Notes under the pieces: generated by a model
The model's database searches: none
Seen by the model: the letters and a program-made list of their open reading frames with translations, nothing else
What the model was told of the DNA's origin: nothing
Shown: piece by piece, positions 34,425 to 41,935 of the stretch
How positions within the stretch are numbered: the first letter of the stretch is position 1
Layout: each line of letters begins with the position of its first letter
Made by a program: the position numbers and the translations under genes
From: Gammaproteobacteria bacterium
GTDB taxonomy: Bacteria > Pseudomonadota > Gammaproteobacteria > Burkholderiales > Rhodocyclaceae
Assembly: GCA_018824085.1 (NCBI GenBank)
Contig: JAHJHI010000040.1
Span: 1 to 64,000 of the forward strand
Length of the DNA: 64,000 nucleotides
Reading direction: 5' to 3'

Positions 34425-35243
34425 TCAGGGATTCCACAGCTTCCACAGCATGCGGGCGCACAGCACGATGAGCAGAATCGAAAAGATGCGCTTGAGCCAG
34501 TGCACCGGCCAGCGGTGTGCGGCGCGCGCGCCCATCGGCGTCGTGAACAGGCTGGCCGACACGATCGCCAGCAGCGCCGGCAAATAGACATAACCGACCG
34601 AATGCGGCGGCAGGCCCGCAACATGCCAGCCATTGAAGATGTAGCCCGCCGTGCCGCCGAGAGCGATCGGCAGCCCGAGTGCCGCCGCCGTGCCGATGGC
34701 GCCGCGCATGTCGCGATTGCACCAGGTCAGGAAGGGCACCGTCATCGCACCGCCACCGACCGCCACCAGCGCCGACACCATGCCGATGCCGCCGCCGGCG
34801 GCCATCAGCCCCGGCGCGCCGGGCAGCTGGCGCGACGGTTTGGTCTTGCCGCCGAACAGCATGTTCAGCGCGACGTAGCCGATGAAGACGGAGAAGAAGA
34901 TGGACAGCTCGCGGGTCGATACCAGCCGCGCGACATAAGTGCCGATGGCCGTGCCGGCCAGTACGCCGACCGTCATGATGCGCACAATGCGCCAGTCGAC
35001 CGCGCCATGGCGGTGATGCGTGCGCAGGCTGATCGCCGCCGACATCACGATGGCGGCCATCGAGGTGCCCAGCGCGAGGTGCAGGATGTTCTCCGGCGCG
35101 ACCTGCTGGCGCTCGAACAGCATCACCAGCATCGGTACCAGCAGCGTACCGCCGCCAATGCCCAGCATGCCGGCAAAGAAACCGGCGACGGTGCCCAGCG
35201 CGATGCAGGCGATGACGAAATCGAGATCGGGAAAGAACATCAT
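34425..35243 (-). CDS. TauE/SafE-family sulfite exporter-like permease
   Basis: A 272-residue, eight-span permease. Typical repeats are ALGTVAGFFAGMLGIGGGTL near 17-36 and GGGIGMVSALVAVGGGAMTV near 152-171, the mirrored halves of the TauE/SafE fold. The family exports sulfite, sulfoacetate and other organic anions, or in some cases imports. The start is either of two adjacent methionines (35243 or 35240). It is monocistronic, convergent with the PEP-CTERM gene, and separated from the oxalate-type operon by a strong hairpin. Confidence 0.88.
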   Translation of the reverse strand: MMFFPDLDFVIACIALGTVAGFFAGMLGIGGGTLLVPMLVMLFERQQVAPENILHLALGTSMAAIVMSAAISLRTHHRHGAVDWRIVRIMTVGVLAGTAIGTYVARLVSTRELSIFFSVFIGYVALNMLFGGKTKPSRQLPGAPGLMAAGGGIGMVSALVAVGGGAMTVPFLTWCNRDMRGAIGTAAALGLPIALGGTAGYIFNGWHVAGLPPHSVGYVYLPALLAIVSASLFTTPMGARAAHRWPVHWLKRIFSILLIVLCARMLWKLWNP

Positions 35244-35311
35244 GGTGCAGCGCAAAAGCACTATCTGAACACAGCCAGCGGGCCGCCGGCAAAGACGGGC
35301 GTTGCACAGAT

Positions 35312-35343
35312 GCAAACGGGGCGCCCGAAGGCGCCCCGTTTGC
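35312..35343 (-). terminator. Strong hairpin after the PanE-family gene
   Basis: A perfect 14-bp stem (35312-35325 with 35330-35343) closes a 4-nt loop (TTCG on the minus strand). It begins about 19 bp after the stop of the PanE-family gene and probably ends the leftward operon. The stem is flanked by AAA and TTT but has no long T-run. Confidence 0.7.
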
Positions 35344-35361
35344 GCCCGGAGTGCGCCGCGT

Positions 35362-36366
35362 TCAGCTGGCGATGGACAGCTTTCCGCGCTGTGCCGACAG
35401 CGAACGCGCAAGCAAGGACACCAGCGCATATACGGCGTCGATGTTCGGCGTCGCGATGCCCGTGATGCGGCCGAGTTCGCGCACCGATCCCACCAGCGCT
35501 TCGAACTCGAGCGGACGGCCCGATTCGACGTCCTGCAGCATCGACGTCTTGTGCGCGCCGACCGCTTCGGCTCCGGCGATGCGCTTGTCGAGTGCGATCT
35601 TGAACTCGACGCCGAGCTTCTCGCCGACCGCCTGCGCCTCGCGCATCATGTTGGCGGCCAGCTCGCGCGTCAGCGGGAAGCGGCAGATGTCTTCCAGCGT
35701 GGCATGCGTCAGCGCCGAGATCGGATTGAAGCTGAGGTTGCCCCACAGCTTCACCCACATTTCGGAACGGATGTCCTTGGACACCGGCGACTTGAAGCCT
35801 GCCGCGATCATCGCCTGCGACAGCGCCTCGATGCGCGGCGACCGCGAGCCGTCCAGCTCGCCGAGCGTGAAGCGGTTGCCTTCGATCAGCCTGACGACGC
35901 CCGGCTCTACCAGTTCGGACGCCGGGTAGACAACGCTGCCGATCACCCGCTCGACCTCGATGTTCGCCGCGACGATGCCGTCCGGATCGACCGACGTGAC
36001 CGGCTGGCCTTCGTAGTCACCGGCGAGCTTGTGGAAGTACCACCAGGGGATGCCGTTCTGCATCGTAACCACCATGGTGTCCGGTCCGAACAGCGCGCGC
36101 ATGTCGGCCGCCACATCCTTCACCTGGTGCGCCTTCAGCGTCAGCAGCACGACGTCCTGCACGCCGGCATCGCTCATCTTCTGCACACCGCGGATCGCCG
36201 GCGCCTCTTCCACCGTCCCGTCGTCCAGCAGCAGCTTCATGCCACCGGCCTGGATCGCCGCGAGATTCGGACCCCGTGCGATGCACGTCACTTCATTGCC
36301 GGCACGGGACAGCTTCACCGCAAGGTAGCCGCCGATCGCGCCAGCTCCGACCACTGCAATCTTCAT
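35362..36366 (-). CDS. PanE-family 2-dehydropantoate reductase, possible oxalyl-CoA reductase
   Basis: A 334-residue NADP-dependent reductase. The Rossmann motif is MKIAVVGAGAIGGYLAVKLS. The catalytic lysine region reads IRSEMWVKLWGNLSFNPISA near 202-221, and the C-terminal domain has EAVGAHKTSMLQDVESGRPL near 282-301. It is longer than biosynthetic PanE of E. coli (about 303). It is the last gene of an operon with an oxalyl-CoA-synthetase-like ligase and a TctABC uptake system. A paralogue called PanE2 was reported to reduce oxalyl-CoA to glyoxylate in Methylorubrum extorquens; the context suggests the same here. Ordinary ketopantoate reduction for pantothenate synthesis remains possible, since no other panE is visible. 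Confidence 0.85.
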   Translation of the reverse strand: MKIAVVGAGAIGGYLAVKLSRAGNEVTCIARGPNLAAIQAGGMKLLLDDGTVEEAPAIRGVQKMSDAGVQDVVLLTLKAHQVKDVAADMRALFGPDTMVVTMQNGIPWWYFHKLAGDYEGQPVTSVDPDGIVAANIEVERVIGSVVYPASELVEPGVVRLIEGNRFTLGELDGSRSPRIEALSQAMIAAGFKSPVSKDIRSEMWVKLWGNLSFNPISALTHATLEDICRFPLTRELAANMMREAQAVGEKLGVEFKIALDKRIAGAEAVGAHKTSMLQDVESGRPLEFEALVGSVRELGRITGIATPNIDAVYALVSLLARSLSAQRGKLSIAS

Positions 36367-36391
36367 CGTTACGTCCTCCCGCGCACCGCGA

Positions 36392-37885
36392 TCAGCGGCT
36401 GCGCAAATAGTGTTTCAACGCCGGGATCACCGGCCACAGCAGCATCAGGAACGACAGGCTCATGAGGCCGGCAACCAGCGGATTCGCCCAGAAGATGTCC
36501 AGACTGCCCTGCGACAGCAGCATCGACTGCCGGAAACTCGATTCGGCCATGTCACCCAGCACCAGCGCCAGCACCAGCGGCGCGAGCGGATAGCGCAGCT
36601 TCTTGAACAGGTAACCGAACACGCCGAACACCAGCATCATCACCACGTCGAACAGCGAGTTGTGCACCGTGTAGGCACCGATGGCGCAGATGACGATGAT
36701 GACCGGGCCGATGACCGAGAACGGGATGCGCAGGATGGCCGCCCACCAGGGCACCGTGGTCAGCACGACGATGAGGCCGACGATGTTGCCGAGATACATC
36801 GAGGCGATCAGGCCCCAGACGAAGTCGGGCTTCTCGGCAAACAGCAACGGACCGGGCTGCAGACCCCAGATCAGCAGGCCGCCCAGCAGCACCGCGGCGG
36901 TCGGCGAGCCGGGAATGCCCAGCGTGAGCATGGGCAGCAGCGCCGACGTACCGGCGGCGTGTGCCGCAGTTTCCGGTGCAACCACGCCTTCGATATTGCC
37001 CTTGCCGAAGGAGTCCTTGTCCTTCGCGCCACGACGCGCCAGGCCGTAGGCCATGAAGGAGGCGGGCGTGGCGCCACCGGGCGTGACACCCATCCAGCAA
37101 CCGACCAGCACCGAGCGCAGCGACGTTCTCCAGTAGCGCAGCAGTTCCTTCCAGGTCTGGAGCACGACATTGAACTGGATCTTCGCGCTCTTGCCCTTGA
37201 AGGCCAGTCCTTCTTCCATCGTCAGCAGGATTTCGCCGATGCCGAACAGGCCGATCACCGCGATCAGGAAGTCGAAGCCCTTGAGCAGTTCCGTGTAGCC
37301 GAAGGTCATGCGCAGCGTGCCGGTCACCGTGTCCATGCCGACCGCGGCCAGCGCGAAACCGAGCGTCATGACGGCAAGCGTCTTGGCCGGCGGCTCCTTG
37401 CTCATGCCGACAAAGGAGCAGAAGGTGAGCATCTGCACCGCGAACATTTCGGCCGCACCGAACCTCAGCGCAAAGCGCGCAACCAGCGGCGCGAGGAAGG
37501 TGATCAGCAGGACGGCAAAGAAGGCGCCGACGAAGGATGACGTGAAGGCGGCCGTCAATGCGGCCCCCGCGCGCCCTTGCTGCGCCATCGGATAGCCGTC
37601 GAAGGTCGTCGCCACCGACCACGGTTCGCCCGGAATGTTGAACAGGATGGACGTGATCGCCCCGCCGAACAGGGCGCCCCAGTAGATGCAGGACAGCATG
37701 ATGATGGCGGACGTCTGGTCCATCGAAAACGTGAGCGGCAGCAGGATGGCGATGCCGTTGGCACCGCCCAGTCCCGGCAGCACGCCGATCAGGATGCCCA
37801 GCGTGATGCCGAGAACCATGAAACCCAGGTTGTGCAGGGTCAGCGCGACGCTGAACCCGTGCATGAGATTATTGAATTCTTCCAT
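36392..37885 (-). CDS. tctA: Tripartite tricarboxylate transporter, large permease TctA
   Basis: A 497-residue, about twelve-span permease of the TctA family. Hallmarks are LGILIGVLPGLGGANGIAIL near 28-47 with the conserved LPGxGG, and LGIPGSPTAAVLLGGLLIWG near 325-344. It works with TctB and a periplasmic receptor (TctC) to import carboxylates using an ion gradient. The gene follows tctB by 31 bp on the same strand. The other operon genes suggest a small dicarboxylate, possibly oxalate, as substrate. Confidence 0.95.
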   Translation of the reverse strand: MEEFNNLMHGFSVALTLHNLGFMVLGITLGILIGVLPGLGGANGIAILLPLTFSMDQTSAIIMLSCIYWGALFGGAITSILFNIPGEPWSVATTFDGYPMAQQGRAGAALTAAFTSSFVGAFFAVLLITFLAPLVARFALRFGAAEMFAVQMLTFCSFVGMSKEPPAKTLAVMTLGFALAAVGMDTVTGTLRMTFGYTELLKGFDFLIAVIGLFGIGEILLTMEEGLAFKGKSAKIQFNVVLQTWKELLRYWRTSLRSVLVGCWMGVTPGGATPASFMAYGLARRGAKDKDSFGKGNIEGVVAPETAAHAAGTSALLPMLTLGIPGSPTAAVLLGGLLIWGLQPGPLLFAEKPDFVWGLIASMYLGNIVGLIVVLTTVPWWAAILRIPFSVIGPVIIVICAIGAYTVHNSLFDVVMMLVFGVFGYLFKKLRYPLAPLVLALVLGDMAESSFRQSMLLSQGSLDIFWANPLVAGLMSLSFLMLLWPVIPALKHYLRSR

Positions 37886-37916
37886 CGCGGCCTCGGATGA
37901 AGTTTTTTATGTTGTG

Positions 37917-38426
37917 TCAGAAACCGAGCATGAGCTCGATCGGACCCTTGGGAAGCGGCACGAGGAACCAGCGCTCGAACAGCATGAAGGAGGCCAGCGG
38001 CACTGCAATGGCGGTGATCGCGGTTGCCAGCCAGCTGAACTTGCCGTGCACCTTCATGAAGAAGCCGATCAGCAGCAGCGACGACACGTAGATGCCCAGA
38101 TAGATGACGGCCGCCACATAGAAAATCAGCGGAACCAGCATCTGCATCACGAGTTTCAGTTCACCCCACGTGGCGAATTGCGGCTGCGCGCGGCGGAATT
38201 TCATCAGGGCGCCGACCAGTATCCAGCCACTGGACAACATCAGGATGCAGCCGATGTAGAACGGAAAGTAGCCGGCGAGCGGGCCTTCGCCCTCTTCCCA
38301 GCCAATGCCGACCCGAATGCTGTCGATCACCACGATGATGCTCGCGGCCAGCAGAAACAATGCCACCAGAATTTCGGGCCAGCGGTTGGTGAGGCCGGCT
38401 TCAGCGGCTTCCTCGGATCGCTCCAT
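37917..38426 (-). CDS. tctB: Tripartite tricarboxylate transporter, small permease TctB
   Basis: A 169-residue, four-span TctB subunit. Spans are EILVALFLLAASIIVVIDSI, YFPFYIGCILMLSSGWILVG, VPLIFYVAAVIYLGIYVSSL and LATAITAIAVPLASFMLFER. The family hallmark GPLAGYFPFYIG is present. The ATG at 38426 has GGAG six bases upstream; a TTG six codons earlier is less likely. A 13-bp hairpin separates it from tctC and may keep receptor levels above permease levels. Confidence 0.93.
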   Translation of the reverse strand: MERSEEAAEAGLTNRWPEILVALFLLAASIIVVIDSIRVGIGWEEGEGPLAGYFPFYIGCILMLSSGWILVGALMKFRRAQPQFATWGELKLVMQMLVPLIFYVAAVIYLGIYVSSLLLIGFFMKVHGKFSWLATAITAIAVPLASFMLFERWFLVPLPKGPIELMLGF

Positions 38427-38486
38427 CAAAATCTCCAGAATCAACGAAAACAGGAAGTGAACTTCTTTGCGGCAGGACGACTAAAC

Positions 38487-38516
38487 GAATACGGGCGGGA
38501 TAACCCGCCCGTATTC
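38487..38516 (-). other. Perfect hairpin between tctC and tctB
   Basis: A 13-bp perfect stem (38487-38499 with 38504-38516) has a 4-nt loop. It lies 18 bp after the tctC stop. There is no T-run, so it more likely protects the 3' end of tctC message or causes partial termination, as often seen after genes for solute-binding receptors. Confidence 0.7.
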
Positions 38517-38533
38517 AAGTCACATCAGGCTGA

Positions 38534-39538
38534 TTACTTGGCCAGGAAACCGGCTTCCTTCATCAGGCCGTAGTGCATGGATTCGGTCTTGCTGACCCAG
38601 TCAGCGAATTCCTTGCCACTCATGAAGGTCTGCTTGAACGCACCCTTCTTCATGAAATCCGCCCATTCCGGCGTCTCACGAACTTTCTTGAACAGATCGA
38701 CGTAGAAATCGACCTGGTCCTGCGTGACGCCCGGCGCCAGGAAGATGCCGCGCAGCATCAGGTATTCGATCGGCACGCCGGCACTCTGGCAGGTCGGAAT
38801 ATCGGCCCAGGACTGCGTCGCGGTGACCTTCTCCGTATAGCTCAGGCGCTCGTTGTCCATGATGCACAGCGGGCGCAGCTTGCCGCCGCGCCAGTGCGCT
38901 TCGGCTTCGATCGGGTTGTTCACCGTCGAATTCACGTGGCCGCCCACCAGTTGCACGGCAACGTCGCCACCGCCCTTGAACGGCACGTAGATCATCTTCT
39001 TGCCGGTCGCCTTGTCGATCATCGCGGTGATGATCTGGTCTTCCTGCTTCGAGCCCGTTCCGGCCATCTTGAACGTGCTTGCCGGCTTGGCCTTGATGTC
39101 GTCGATGTACTCCTTGGCCGTCATGTAGGGCGAATCGGCGTTCACCCACAGCACGAACTGGTCGAGCGCCAGCATCGCGCCCGGCGTCAGGTCGCGCCAG
39201 TTGAACGGAACGCCGGTCGCCAGCGGCGTGGTGAACAGGTTCGACAGCGTGATGATGATCTTGTGCGGGTCGCCCTTCGCGCCCTTCACTTCCAGGAAAC
39301 CTTCCGCGCCAGCACCGCCGGACTTGTTCACGACAACCAGCGGCTGCGCCATCAGCTTGTTCTTGGCAACGATGCCCTGGATGAAACGCGCCATCTGGTC
39401 AGCACCGCCACCCGTTCCGGCCGGTACGACGAATTCGACCGGCTTGGTCGGTTCCCAGGCCTGCGCAATGCCGGCCAGACCGAAGGTTGCAGCGGCGGTA
39501 ACGATGGCTCGCCCGGCCCATTTGCCGAATTTATTCAT
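38534..39538 (-). CDS. tctC: TctC/Bug-family periplasmic solute receptor
   Basis: A 334-residue exported receptor. The signal peptide (GRAIVTAAATFGLAGIAQAW) precedes the Bug family opening EPTKPVEFVVPAGTGGGADQ near 29-48 with the conserved G-GGGxD. Later motifs include MAGTGSKQEDQIITAMIDKA and YVPFKGGGDVAVQLVGGHVN near 181-200. Bug receptors bind carboxylates by a pair of bridging waters and feed TctAB or two-component sensors. It is second in the operon after the ligase gene, 50 bp apart. Substrate specificity cannot be read directly. Confidence 0.94.
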   Translation of the reverse strand: MNKFGKWAGRAIVTAAATFGLAGIAQAWEPTKPVEFVVPAGTGGGADQMARFIQGIVAKNKLMAQPLVVVNKSGGAGAEGFLEVKGAKGDPHKIIITLSNLFTTPLATGVPFNWRDLTPGAMLALDQFVLWVNADSPYMTAKEYIDDIKAKPASTFKMAGTGSKQEDQIITAMIDKATGKKMIYVPFKGGGDVAVQLVGGHVNSTVNNPIEAEAHWRGGKLRPLCIMDNERLSYTEKVTATQSWADIPTCQSAGVPIEYLMLRGIFLAPGVTQDQVDFYVDLFKKVRETPEWADFMKKGAFKQTFMSGKEFADWVSKTESMHYGLMKEAGFLAK

Positions 39539-39588
39539 GTGCTGTCTCCTTTATTGTGAAAGACGTTACTGCGCGGAACGGTGCAGGC

Positions 39589-41115
39589 TCAGGCACCCAG
39601 CCCCAGCTTCTGGGCCAGACCGATGCGCTGGAGCTTGCCGGTCGCGCCCTTGGGGATTTCATCCATGAAAATGATCTTGCGCGGGACCTTGAAGTCGGCC
39701 AGACGCGTCGCGGCGAAAGCCTGGATCTCCTTGTCGGTGGCCTGCTGGCCTTCCCGCAGGACGACGACCGCCGCCACTTCCTCGCCAAGCTTCGGATGCG
39801 GCATCGCGAACGTGACGACCTGCGACACGGCCGGATGATCCATCAGCACTTCATCCACCTCGCGCGGGGAAATCTTCTCGCCACCGCGGTTGATGATTTC
39901 CTTCAGGCGTCCGGTCAGCGACAGATAGCCCTCGGCATCCTTGCTGCCCTGGTCGCCGGTACGGAACCAGCCGTTCGTGAATGCTTCGCCATTGGCCTTT
40001 TCGTTGTTCTCGTAACCCGGCGTCACGTTGCTGCCGCGGATGACGATTTCGCCGATCTCGCCGGCCGGCAGGATGGTGCCGTCGTCCGACATGATTTCGA
40101 CTTCCGGCCCGGCCGCCAGACCGACCGCGCCCGGCTTGCGCGCACGCGGCGGCAGCGGGTTGCTGGCCATCTGGTGCGACGCTTCCGTCATGCCGTAGGC
40201 CTCGATCAGCGGTGCGCCGAACGTCTCTTCCAGCTCGCGGATGACCTGCGGCGGAATGGACGACGACGACGAACGCATGAAGCGCAGCGGATTGCGCGCG
40301 ATGATCTCCTTGTTGCGCGAAGCGCGCGACAGGATGGCCTGGTGCATGGTCGGCACCGCCGTGTACCAGGTCGGGTGCGCTTCATCCATCAGCGAGAAGA
40401 ATTTCAGCGCGTCGAAACCCGGCGTGCAGAACACCGAGGCACCGGCGGACAGCGGCGCCATGATGCCGGCGATCAGGCCGTGGATATGGAACAGCGGCAT
40501 GATGTTCAGGCCGCGGTCGGCACTGGTGAAGGCCAGCGTGTTGCGGATGTTCGTCGCCGACGCGGACACGTTGCGCTGGGTCAGCGGCACGATCTTCGGC
40601 CGCGACGTGGTGCCGGACGTATGCAGCACGAGCGCGATGTCATCGGGCTGGGCGTTGCCTGCATTCGCGGGCGCCGAAGCGACACCGGCTTCGCGCGGCT
40701 CGAGCGTGAAATCGCCGGCGGCGTCAAGCGGCAGCAAATCGATCACGCGCACACCCAGCTTCTTCGCGACCTCGATGGCCGGCGAGGTGCTCGTGCGCTC
40801 GACCACGAGTGCCTTGGCATTCAGGTCGGACAGGTAGAACTCGAATTCTTCGGCCCGATAGCCCGGATTCAGCGGCGCGGCGGTTGCGCCGGTAGCGATG
40901 CTGATGAAGGAACTCGCCATGTCGGGACCGTTCGCCAGCACGATGGCCACGCGATCATTGCGGCCGATGCCGAGTTCGTTGAGGCGGGCGACGGTGCGCG
41001 CCATCAGCGCACGAAGATCGCCAAAGCTCAGATCGCTGCGACCCGGCGCGGAAAGCGCTACAGCCGCATCGGCACCGGTTGAAAAAAGTTCTGCCAGCGT
41101 GGAAATACCGGACAT
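39589..41115 (-). CDS. Acyl-CoA synthetase resembling oxalate-CoA ligase
   Basis: A 508-residue ANL-family adenylating enzyme. The AMP motif is LVLHTSGTTSRPKIVPLT near 165-182. Further core motifs are FHIHGLIAGIMAPL, WYTAVPTMHQAIL, EAYGMTEASHQMASNPLP near 301-318, and GRLKEIINRGGEKISPREVD near 396-415, with the catalytic lysine in KGATGKLQRIG. These blocks, especially the SNPLP and WYTAVPT stretches, are those of the plant AAE3/yeast Pcs60 oxalyl-CoA synthetases. It should form oxalyl-CoA from oxalate, ATP and CoA. The ATG at 41115 has GGAG six bases upstream. First gene of the leftward operon with tctCBA and a PanE-family gene. Confidence 0.85.
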   Translation of the reverse strand: MSGISTLAELFSTGADAAVALSAPGRSDLSFGDLRALMARTVARLNELGIGRNDRVAIVLANGPDMASSFISIATGATAAPLNPGYRAEEFEFYLSDLNAKALVVERTSTSPAIEVAKKLGVRVIDLLPLDAAGDFTLEPREAGVASAPANAGNAQPDDIALVLHTSGTTSRPKIVPLTQRNVSASATNIRNTLAFTSADRGLNIMPLFHIHGLIAGIMAPLSAGASVFCTPGFDALKFFSLMDEAHPTWYTAVPTMHQAILSRASRNKEIIARNPLRFMRSSSSSIPPQVIRELEETFGAPLIEAYGMTEASHQMASNPLPPRARKPGAVGLAAGPEVEIMSDDGTILPAGEIGEIVIRGSNVTPGYENNEKANGEAFTNGWFRTGDQGSKDAEGYLSLTGRLKEIINRGGEKISPREVDEVLMDHPAVSQVVTFAMPHPKLGEEVAAVVVLREGQQATDKEIQAFAATRLADFKVPRKIIFMDEIPKGATGKLQRIGLAQKLGLGA

Positions 41116-41413
41116 ACGGACTCCGAAAGACTTTGTTACAGGGAAAGGAGGGTGTGCTCCCGCTCCAGCGGAATATCCATCGGTCCCGGATAGGGGCCCC
41201 GGACAAGCGAAGCTGAACGAGTGTTCACCAGAACGGCCATCCATTCAAGCCGCACCGCGGCAAAAGCGCCGACGATGGCGCACGCACGGCGGCGAATCAC
41301 AGGCACGGAGCAAACTGTAACGGATGCGTTACAGGAATTTGATCAGGAAGGCTGAAAACAACAGGAGGCGTGAGGCAGTGGCGCCGGAACCGGCAGACCA
41401 CAAGGGGAGGGGA
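41116..41413. other. Intergenic spacer between ligase gene and 6S RNA
   Basis: About 300 bp with no convincing gene. It must contain the promoter of the leftward ligase-tctCBA-panE operon and the 3' flank of 6S RNA. The sequence TGTAACGGATGCGTTACAGG (41316-41335) contains the palindrome TGTAACGGATGCGTTACA, a TGTAAC-N6-GTTACA inverted repeat and a possible operator. I see no strong -35/-10 pair. Confidence 0.5.
41316..41333. promoter_or_regulatory. TGTAAC-N6-GTTACA inverted repeat upstream of the ligase operon
   Basis: A perfect 6+6 bp inverted repeat with a 6-bp centre, TGTAACGGATGCGTTACA, lies about 200 bp upstream of the ligase start. Its size and symmetry suit a GntR/FadR- or TetR-type dimeric repressor. 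Which gene it controls, the ligase operon or something acting on 6S RNA, is unclear. Confidence 0.45.
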
Positions 41414-41590
41414 CCCCCGCGTATGTCGCTAGGCCGGCATCCTGAACCGTGGGTTCAGAGCGGCTGCGTTCCGGCCGCATCAGGCACACCCGCGAGGGGT
41501 ACGCACAACAGCAGCTTCATGGTTCGCAACCTCATGCCAATGAGACATTGGTTCAAGGAATCTATGACCTTGGCAAACACCGCAGGGGAT
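41414..41590 (-). ncRNA. ssrS: 6S RNA
   Basis: A 6S RNA candidate of about 177 nt lies directly downstream of zapA on the same strand, its usual place in proteobacteria. The ends pair: CCCCTGCG-GTGT at the 5' end (41588 leftward) with ACATACGCGGGGG at the 3' end (to 41414), a closing stem with one bulge. Internal halves show the expected CCTTGAACCAATG on the 5' side and CTGAACCCACGGTTCAGG on the 3' side, resembling the 3' hairpin region of E. coli 6S. It binds the housekeeping RNA polymerase holoenzyme and damps transcription in stationary phase. Exact ends are estimates. Confidence 0.82.
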
Positions 41591-41626
41591 TGATGCACAA
41601 GGCTTTCGCCTTGCAACAGACGGCAG

Positions 41627-41935
41627 CTAGAAGAGCTTTTCCTGGCTGGAGAGCGCTTCGTCGATGCGCGACTGCATGGCATTGATTCTACGCCGCAGGG
41701 GGACCAAATCAACACCGCCCGTCGCCTGCACCTGAAAAATTTCGTGAGCAAGATTCAGCGCGCACATGACGGCAAGGCGCTCACCCGATGCGCGCGTCGA
41801 TTCAGCAAGATCCCGCATGCGGCGCTCGACCAGCTCGACCGACGCATTGAGCGCGTCACGCTCGCCTTCGCGGCACTGCACCCGGTATTCACGGCCAAGC
41901 AGGGTGATTTCGGTGAACTCGGATTCGCGCGTCAT
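41627..41935 (-). CDS. zapA: Cell division protein ZapA
   Basis: A 102-residue FtsZ-ring stabiliser. The N-terminal globular part (EFTEITLLGREYRVQCREGE) matches ZapA, followed by RRMRDLAESTRASGERLAVM and a C-terminal coiled coil (DLVPLRRRINAMQSRIDEAL). It promotes bundling of FtsZ filaments at midcell. It overlaps the zapB-like gene upstream by four bases and is followed by the 6S RNA, the standard order in this group. Confidence 0.94.
   Translation of the reverse strand: MTRESEFTEITLLGREYRVQCREGERDALNASVELVERRMRDLAESTRASGERLAVMCALNLAHEIFQVQATGGVDLVPLRRRINAMQSRIDEALSSQEKLF

Follow-up and report, generated by a model that had tools for sequence, protein, structure and literature searches.

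A ligase–TctCBA–PanE operon as a candidate system for oxalate uptake and assimilation in a relative of Methyloversatilis

Which acid is served by an operon that joins an acyl-CoA ligase, a tripartite transporter and a PanE-type reductase? The question is raised by five genes of a Rhodocyclaceae bacterium (assembly GCA_018824085.1, contig JAHJHI010000040.1), located in the first 64,000 nucleotides of the contig, which are the window analyzed here. A first-pass annotation, made from the letters alone, had proposed that oxalate is imported, activated to oxalyl-CoA and reduced to glyoxylate. This reading was supported by the relatives of the ligase and of PanE and by the conserved gene context. 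The operon probably imports and assimilates oxalate; the substrate of each protein and the direction of the reactions are what we infer from sequence comparison.

The operon and its two enzymes

The operon ran leftward over positions 35362–41115. Its five genes, in the order of transcription, were:

39589..41115, minus strand: oxalyl-CoA synthetase candidate (AAE3/Pcs60-like ANL ligase), 508 amino acids, first gene
38534..39538, minus strand: TctC, periplasmic solute-binding protein, 334 amino acids (PF03401, 96 bits against a cut-off of 27)
37917..38426, minus strand: TctB, small membrane subunit, 169 amino acids (PF07331, 64.6 bits against 29.1)
36392..37885, minus strand: TctA, large membrane subunit, 497 amino acids (PF01970, 504 bits against 28.9)
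35362..36366, minus strand: long PanE-type reductase, proposed oxalyl-CoA reductase, 334 amino acids (NF005089, 461 bits against 223)

All five genes possessed an ATG start and a stop codon, were separated by gaps of 25–107 bases, and had a ribosome-binding-like stretch ahead of the start. A longer reading of tctB from a TTG at 38444 was possible, and the Pfam scan of TctB was run from that position. The two enzymes also exceeded their Pfam cut-offs (AMP-binding, 244 bits against 29.9 for the ligase; ApbA, 92 against 22.2, and ApbA_C, 103 against 22.7, for PanE). The operon described in the first pass was therefore found as stated, with family matches far above the cut-offs, and its transporter was a complete tripartite tricarboxylate transporter, as all three subunits passed. 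TctC was the only PF03401 match of the genome at E 0.001. The search for OxlT, which covered the operon only, found none among its genes. The set of five was intact in eight Methyloversatilis loci returned by the PanE scan described below (L002–L008, L020), and a ligase ortholog (88–100% identity, own genome counted) occurred in 12 of the 13 genomes of the genus; the set is therefore not a chance assembly.

The four best matches of the ligase among solved structures were all oxalate-CoA ligases: Arabidopsis AAE3 (5ie0, 447 bits), the Lathyrus enzyme (6qjz, 436 bits), and 8aff (377 bits) and 8atd (273 bits), which we take to be yeast Pcs60. The next structure was FadD13 (3r44) with 221 bits, about half the score of the best oxalate ligase. 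No other ANL family with solved structures came as close to the ligase as the proven oxalate-CoA ligases did, in agreement with the AAE3/Pcs60 assignment of the first pass. It shared 230 of 483 aligned residues (47.6%) with AtAAE3, and its segment MTEASHQMASNPLPP was closely common to the solved oxalate-CoA ligases, with no match in FadD13. Furthermore, Ser289 and His319 of AtAAE3, presumably substrate contacts, corresponded to S284 and H314 of the window ligase, and the histidine was also present in yeast Pcs60 and not in FadD13. The best NCBIfam match was "FadD7 family fatty acid-CoA ligase" (418 bits, under the cut-off of 650). This label was rejected because the solved oxalate ligases outscored the solved fatty-acid ligase FadD13 by far.

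A second AAE3-like ligase (52–54% identity) was present in 7 of the 13 Methyloversatilis genomes, in some adjoining an Oxc-like thiamine diphosphate (ThDP) enzyme below the cut-off. Five stretches were taken (L166–L170, from G311, G309, G312, G317 and G306), and the open reading frames of L166 and L168–L170, read without a family search, looked like a large biosynthetic cluster; for this reason the second ligase was not counted among the oxalate genes.

The reductase had its nearest relatives in Methyloversatilis (8 loci, 91–95% identity). It was 61–64% identical to the long PanE of Methylorubrum and Methylobacterium loci, most of which also held OxlT, and 64% identical to that of Methylorubrum thiocyanatum (L061, an OxlT locus) and of Methylorubrum populi. 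To this group belongs PanE2 of M. extorquens, for which assays showed an oxalyl-CoA/glyoxylate reaction (PMC8411744, PMC9485241), in support of the first-pass reading of the reductase; the PanE of sister species stood in for the assayed AM1 sequence. The assay used NADP and started from glyoxylate, and the reaction was reversible (PMC9485241). In Cupriavidus necator, deletion of the PanE relative apbA2 slowed growth on oxalate (PMC7486775).

The window's genome contained a second PanE-family gene, on contig C31, of 316 amino acids and 28.6% identity to the window PanE, so that the operon does not hold the only panE, a case that the first-pass annotation had named as fatal to its reading. Likewise, the M. 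thiocyanatum and M. populi genomes each had one other ApbA_C gene, of 312 amino acids in M. thiocyanatum. The window PanE carried the motif NGIPWWYF, and the PWWYF columns were gaps in both the 316-residue PanE of the same genome and the 312-residue PanE of Methylorubrum. The long-form WW also occurred in L160, the second PanE of the genome to which L048 belongs. Two further rows of this comparison, L161 and L163, were incorrect open reading frames and were disregarded.

Gene neighbourhoods and the transporter

Genome contigs were scanned with PanE, and the best 80 of 394 relatives were kept as loci. Neighbours were called by tblastn with identity thresholds chosen by the analyst, in flanks of at most 10 kb, and curated models were applied to examples. 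The ligase was found near PanE in 70 of the 80 loci; eight of the other ten ended within 3.5 kb on one side, and L066 and L057 had room yet lacked it. As for the carriers, TctCBA was near PanE in 34 loci, OxlT in 22, both in none and neither in 24. The naive chance of zero overlap was 3e-7, which is not a true probability because the loci are related and not independent. All four OxlT examples (L036, L059, L061, L048) passed the oxalate/formate antiporter model TIGR04259 with 622–656 bits against 335. A ligase and a PanE that were 63–73% and 61–67% identical to the window's pair accompanied OxlT in 22 of the 80 loci. Oxc and Frc were rare near PanE, in two (L027, L030) and three loci (L027, L030, L081), respectively.

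The gene order varied among loci, being ligase–TctCBA–PanE in 13, TctCBA–FAH–PanE–ligase in 8 and ligase–PanE–TctCBA–Oxc in 2, with Tct reversed in another 2, where FAH stands for a fumarylacetoacetate-hydrolase-family gene. The set therefore stays together while its order is shuffled. The order OxlT–FAH–PanE–ligase occurred in 21 loci, mostly of Methylobacterium and Methylorubrum. It matched the TctCBA–FAH–PanE–ligase order of the eight loci, which means that Tct takes the slot of OxlT.

The FAH gene was near PanE in 45 of the 80 loci (examples: L061:9103-9882, L044:9198-10004); in 42 of these it immediately preceded PanE, and in the remaining 3 it followed PanE on the opposite strand. The window operon had no FAH gene; its own genome held a homologue of 52% on contig C18, the match containing one in-frame stop.

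Since a view built on PanE is circular, a second survey was started from TctC. Among 300 genomes drawn from the order, 63, own included, matched with E values of 1e-60 or lower; flanks were fetched for all 63 places outside the own one, and oxalate genes were mapped by tblastn. Among the 52 relatives with at least 60% identity, 44 adjoined oxalate genes. These were Frc in 35 loci (79–100% identical to the queries), with Oxc as well in 29 (75–87%), and the ligase and/or PanE in 9, none of which adjoined Frc or Oxc. The Frc and Oxc calls were confirmed by curated models on examples. By comparison, none of the 11 relatives below 60% had a mapped oxalate neighbour; eight adjoined a BhcA-related aminotransferase, which in two examples scored 461 and 436 bits, below the cut-off of 650. 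This low-identity group serves as a control, since the neighbourhood changes where the oxalate-linked clade ends. Two of its members differed from the rest: L143 clustered with the oxalate clade in the tree described below, and L152 was a 37% match with no mapped neighbour. Three pairs of loci with identical TctC (L122/L033, L123/L032, L153/L009) apparently represent single records that occur in both collections, which makes the PanE and TctC counts overlap by three.

A quick TctC tree was made of 90 rows, the short rows L150, L151 and L019 having been dropped. The window TctC fell within a set of 27 rows (support 98), every one of them linked to PanE/ligase. Outside the aminotransferase group there were 81 rows: 39 linked to PanE/ligase (including L027 and L030, which have Oxc too), 33 to Oxc/Frc and 9 without a label. 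The oxalate-linked rows shared certain conserved TctC residues, e.g., Q165, in place of which all eight aminotransferase-linked rows had R. A reading of the ligand from such residues was given up, as they prove nothing on this point and the closest receptors of known structure are only remotely related (108 bits).

As Tct fills the slot of OxlT, and 44 of the 52 close TctC relatives adjoin oxalate genes, TctCBA is a strong candidate for an oxalate importer. It is rather likely, moreover, that its clade represents a second oxalate uptake system, widespread among bacteria, that replaces OxlT whether oxalyl-CoA is then decarboxylated by Oxc/Frc or reduced by way of ligase and PanE, and that in Methyloversatilis it feeds an Oxc-free, purely assimilatory route to the serine cycle. 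If the clade does import oxalate, it could serve as a marker for oxalate uptake; Frc or Oxc adjoined it in 35 of the 52 loci sampled from the order.

The distant TctCBA group beside the BhcA-like, glyoxylate-type aminotransferase (8 of 11 loci: L108, L116–L120, L148, L149) is a candidate carrier of glyoxylate or a related acid. In L091 (2252-3946), L097 and L098, another ThDP enzyme stood in the place of Oxc beside Frc and Tct. The best model of the L091 enzyme was acetolactate synthase (518 against 587 bits, below the cut-off), followed by 2-hydroxyacyl-CoA lyase (378 against 600), and the enzyme possibly directs oxalyl- or formyl-CoA to another fate. In addition, 31 of the 35 Frc–Tct loci had a methionyl-tRNA-formyltransferase-like gene in the vicinity of Frc, e.g., L109:15865-16797 (144 against 201.5 bits, below the cut-off); this gene might handle formyl groups.

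Proposed pathway and alternative explanations

In the proposed pathway, TctC would bind oxalate in the periplasm and TctAB would move it into the cell, where the ligase would convert oxalate, ATP and CoA into oxalyl-CoA. The PanE-type enzyme would use NADPH to reduce oxalyl-CoA to glyoxylate, with release of CoA, and glyoxylate would enter the serine cycle via a serine-glyoxylate-aminotransferase-like enzyme. Because the conversion costs ATP and NADPH and has no decarboxylation arm, oxalate would serve as extra carbon, topping up glyoxylate while the cells grow on a different energy source, for example methanol.

The window's genome (4.28 Mb, 56 contigs, listed as 100% complete) was nearest to Methyloversatilis, and its host is probably a methanol-eating bacterium. 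A cluster on contig C10 appeared serine-cycle-like, in line with the serine-cycle host supposed in the first pass. Above the cut-offs were malate-CoA ligase beta (741 against 604 bits), FchA (322 against 275) and serine hydroxymethyltransferase (670 against 335), together with a ligase alpha subunit (435 against 336 on the succinate-CoA model). Below them were the serine-glyoxylate-aminotransferase-like enzyme (580 against 650, BhcA model), a hydroxyacid dehydrogenase (356 against 448), PEP carboxylase (755 against 815) and a CitE-like lyase (183 against 443). In the whole-genome search, the best Oxc match reached 202.8 bits against 739.4, the best Frc match 158.7 against 504.2 and the best glyoxylate carboligase match 318.6 against 711.2. 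Oxalyl-CoA decarboxylase, noted in the first pass as absent from the locus, likewise gave no match above the Oxc cut-off in any of the 13 genomes of the genus. With no oxc, frc or gcl above the cut-offs but a serine-cycle-like cluster present, oxalate is probably a co-substrate and not the sole energy source, and its use alongside another substrate is more likely than growth on it alone.

M. extorquens is a serine-cycle host that has Frc, and oxalate assimilation by PanE2 in its strain AM1 was reportedly described by Schneider in 2012. The oxalyl-CoA/glyoxylate step by a PanE is common to AM1 and the present proposal, and related species have the same ligase beside PanE. However, the carrier of AM1 is an oxalate/formate antiporter (PMC13344952) and M. 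extorquens has Oxc (PMC8411744), whereas the window operon has TctCBA and its genome no Oxc or Frc above the cut-offs. In C. necator, a PanE-type enzyme, ApbA2, lies near frc–oxc and has a genetic effect on oxalate use, and deletion of frc–oxc abolishes growth on oxalate, which the authors ascribe to the supply of reducing power (PMC7486775). Unlike that species, the present genome had no frc or oxc above the cut-offs, and its ligase sits in the operon. The AAE3/Pcs60 enzymes of plants and yeast belong to the same ligase family, but in plants the next step is decarboxylation and not the reduction proposed here. A further parallel is an engineered yeast in which FAT2, the yeast oxalyl-CoA synthetase, and panE2 form glyoxylate by the same two steps in the same order (PMC12686821). 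That path is man-made, obtains its oxalate from oxaloacetate and needs no importer; the ligase–reductase pair would be its natural version.

Known ligands of TctCBA and Bug systems include citrate, amino acids, terephthalate and adipate. Oxalate is listed merely as a possible ligand of the Bug proteins of C. metallidurans (PMC2864759), and in PMC2448597 the name of the tripartite tricarboxylate family appears in the reference list. Within the openly licensed literature, among the matches listed, neither the ligase–TctCBA–PanE set nor TctCBA as an oxalate importer was described, and the earlier remark that no operon with this gene set was known holds to that extent. The two enzyme steps, each already known on its own, are here joined naturally in a new way, and the importer beside them is a new candidate of a type that seems not to have been clearly linked with oxalate until now. 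Of the new points, the association of the TctCBA clade with oxalate genes across the order is the most useful.

Several observations weigh against oxalate import and assimilation by this system. In 24 of the 80 PanE loci, neither transporter lay within the flanks examined, and the four OxlT examples also passed an L-lactate transporter model, at lower scores (340–349 against 320 bits). Eight of the 52 close TctC loci had no mapped oxalate gene, six being on cut contigs and two (L100, L130) having full flanks. Nor is the exchange of Tct for OxlT absolute, since one of the 63 TctC loci (L138) combined Tct with Oxc, Frc and a gene resembling OxlT (41%). On the tree, the PanE/ligase label needed 4 changes (mean of shuffled labels, 29.5), and strongly supported branches forced only 1; for this reason repeated changes of enzyme partner by the TctC clade are suggested and not more. 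Within the genus, G312 lacked the ligase ortholog, and the NCBI models named the window PanE 2-dehydropantoate 2-reductase, i.e., ketopantoate reductase. Finally, the absence of Oxc and Frc means that oxalate yields no formate-derived reducing power, which makes sole growth on it doubtful.

TctCBA might import another small carboxylate that enters the same pool, such as glyoxylate, glycolate, tartronate or malonate, with the ligase and the reductase still acting on oxalate and oxalyl-CoA. Tct substrates are not readable from sequence, and the eight distant loci beside a glyoxylate-type aminotransferase indicate that the wider family may carry C2 acids generally. However, Frc and Oxc are oxalate-specific enzymes, and they are the usual company of the close TctC relatives (35 and 29 of 52 loci, respectively); Tct moreover occupies the place of OxlT in the PanE–ligase clusters. 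Import of another acid is accordingly unlikely. Turning to the enzymes, the reductase could run from glyoxylate to oxalyl-CoA, so that the operon would serve glyoxylate overflow or oxalate making. The reversible M. extorquens enzyme was indeed measured in this direction (PMC9485241), and ApbA2 of C. necator was proposed to work so on glycolate (PMC7486775). Nevertheless, an ATP-spending oxalate ligase and an importer share the operon, and no Oxc or Frc above the cut-off is present to consume oxalyl-CoA, which renders the reverse direction highly improbable.

A further explanation, that the whole operon handles a different acid and its enzymes have drifted from the oxalate families, draws on the ease with which ANL ligases switch substrate and on the mere 47.6% identity to AtAAE3. 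It is very unlikely, as the same ligase–PanE pair accompanied OxlT in 22 of the 80 loci and Oxc plus Frc in 2. The NCBIfam name, in turn, would fit a ketopantoate reductase of pantothenate synthesis standing beside unrelated neighbours; with a second PanE of 316 amino acids in the genome and the ligase near 70 of the 80 relatives, this can hardly be so. Oxalate uptake followed by reduction through oxalyl-CoA is the reading that we prefer.

Operon boundaries and nearby features

Two further features of the operon were noted:

38487..38516, minus strand: perfect 13-bp inverted repeat with a 4-base loop, directly after tctC, found from the sequence
35312..35343, minus strand: GC-rich 14-bp hairpin after panE, with the minimum free energy (MFE) taken for a 91-base stretch around it

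The inverted repeat, lying between tctC and tctBA, is a possible attenuator or mRNA stabiliser. Part of it was listed by the terminator scan, whose total of matches was not above that of shuffles. The hairpin after panE probably ends the operon transcript: the stretch 35285-35375 had an MFE of −53 kcal/mol (z −4.63), and none of 200 shuffles was as stable. It was not listed by the terminator scan, which requires a T run. The promoter scan gave nothing above shuffles. The G+C content was 0.62 over 36001–40000 against 0.67 for the whole window, with minima in tctB (0.60) and tctC (0.61).

A TauE/SafE gene at 34425–35243 was considered as an operon member or anion exporter and set aside; it probably lies outside the operon because the strong hairpin after panE intervenes. 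Its relatives within the genus were only 54–60% identical, and one sat 6.7 kb from PanE (L008). Upstream of the operon, a 6S RNA gene was found at 41410–41591 (Rfam, 47.4 bits against a gathering score of 46.4), beside a gene at 41627–41935 that we take to be zapA from its appearance.

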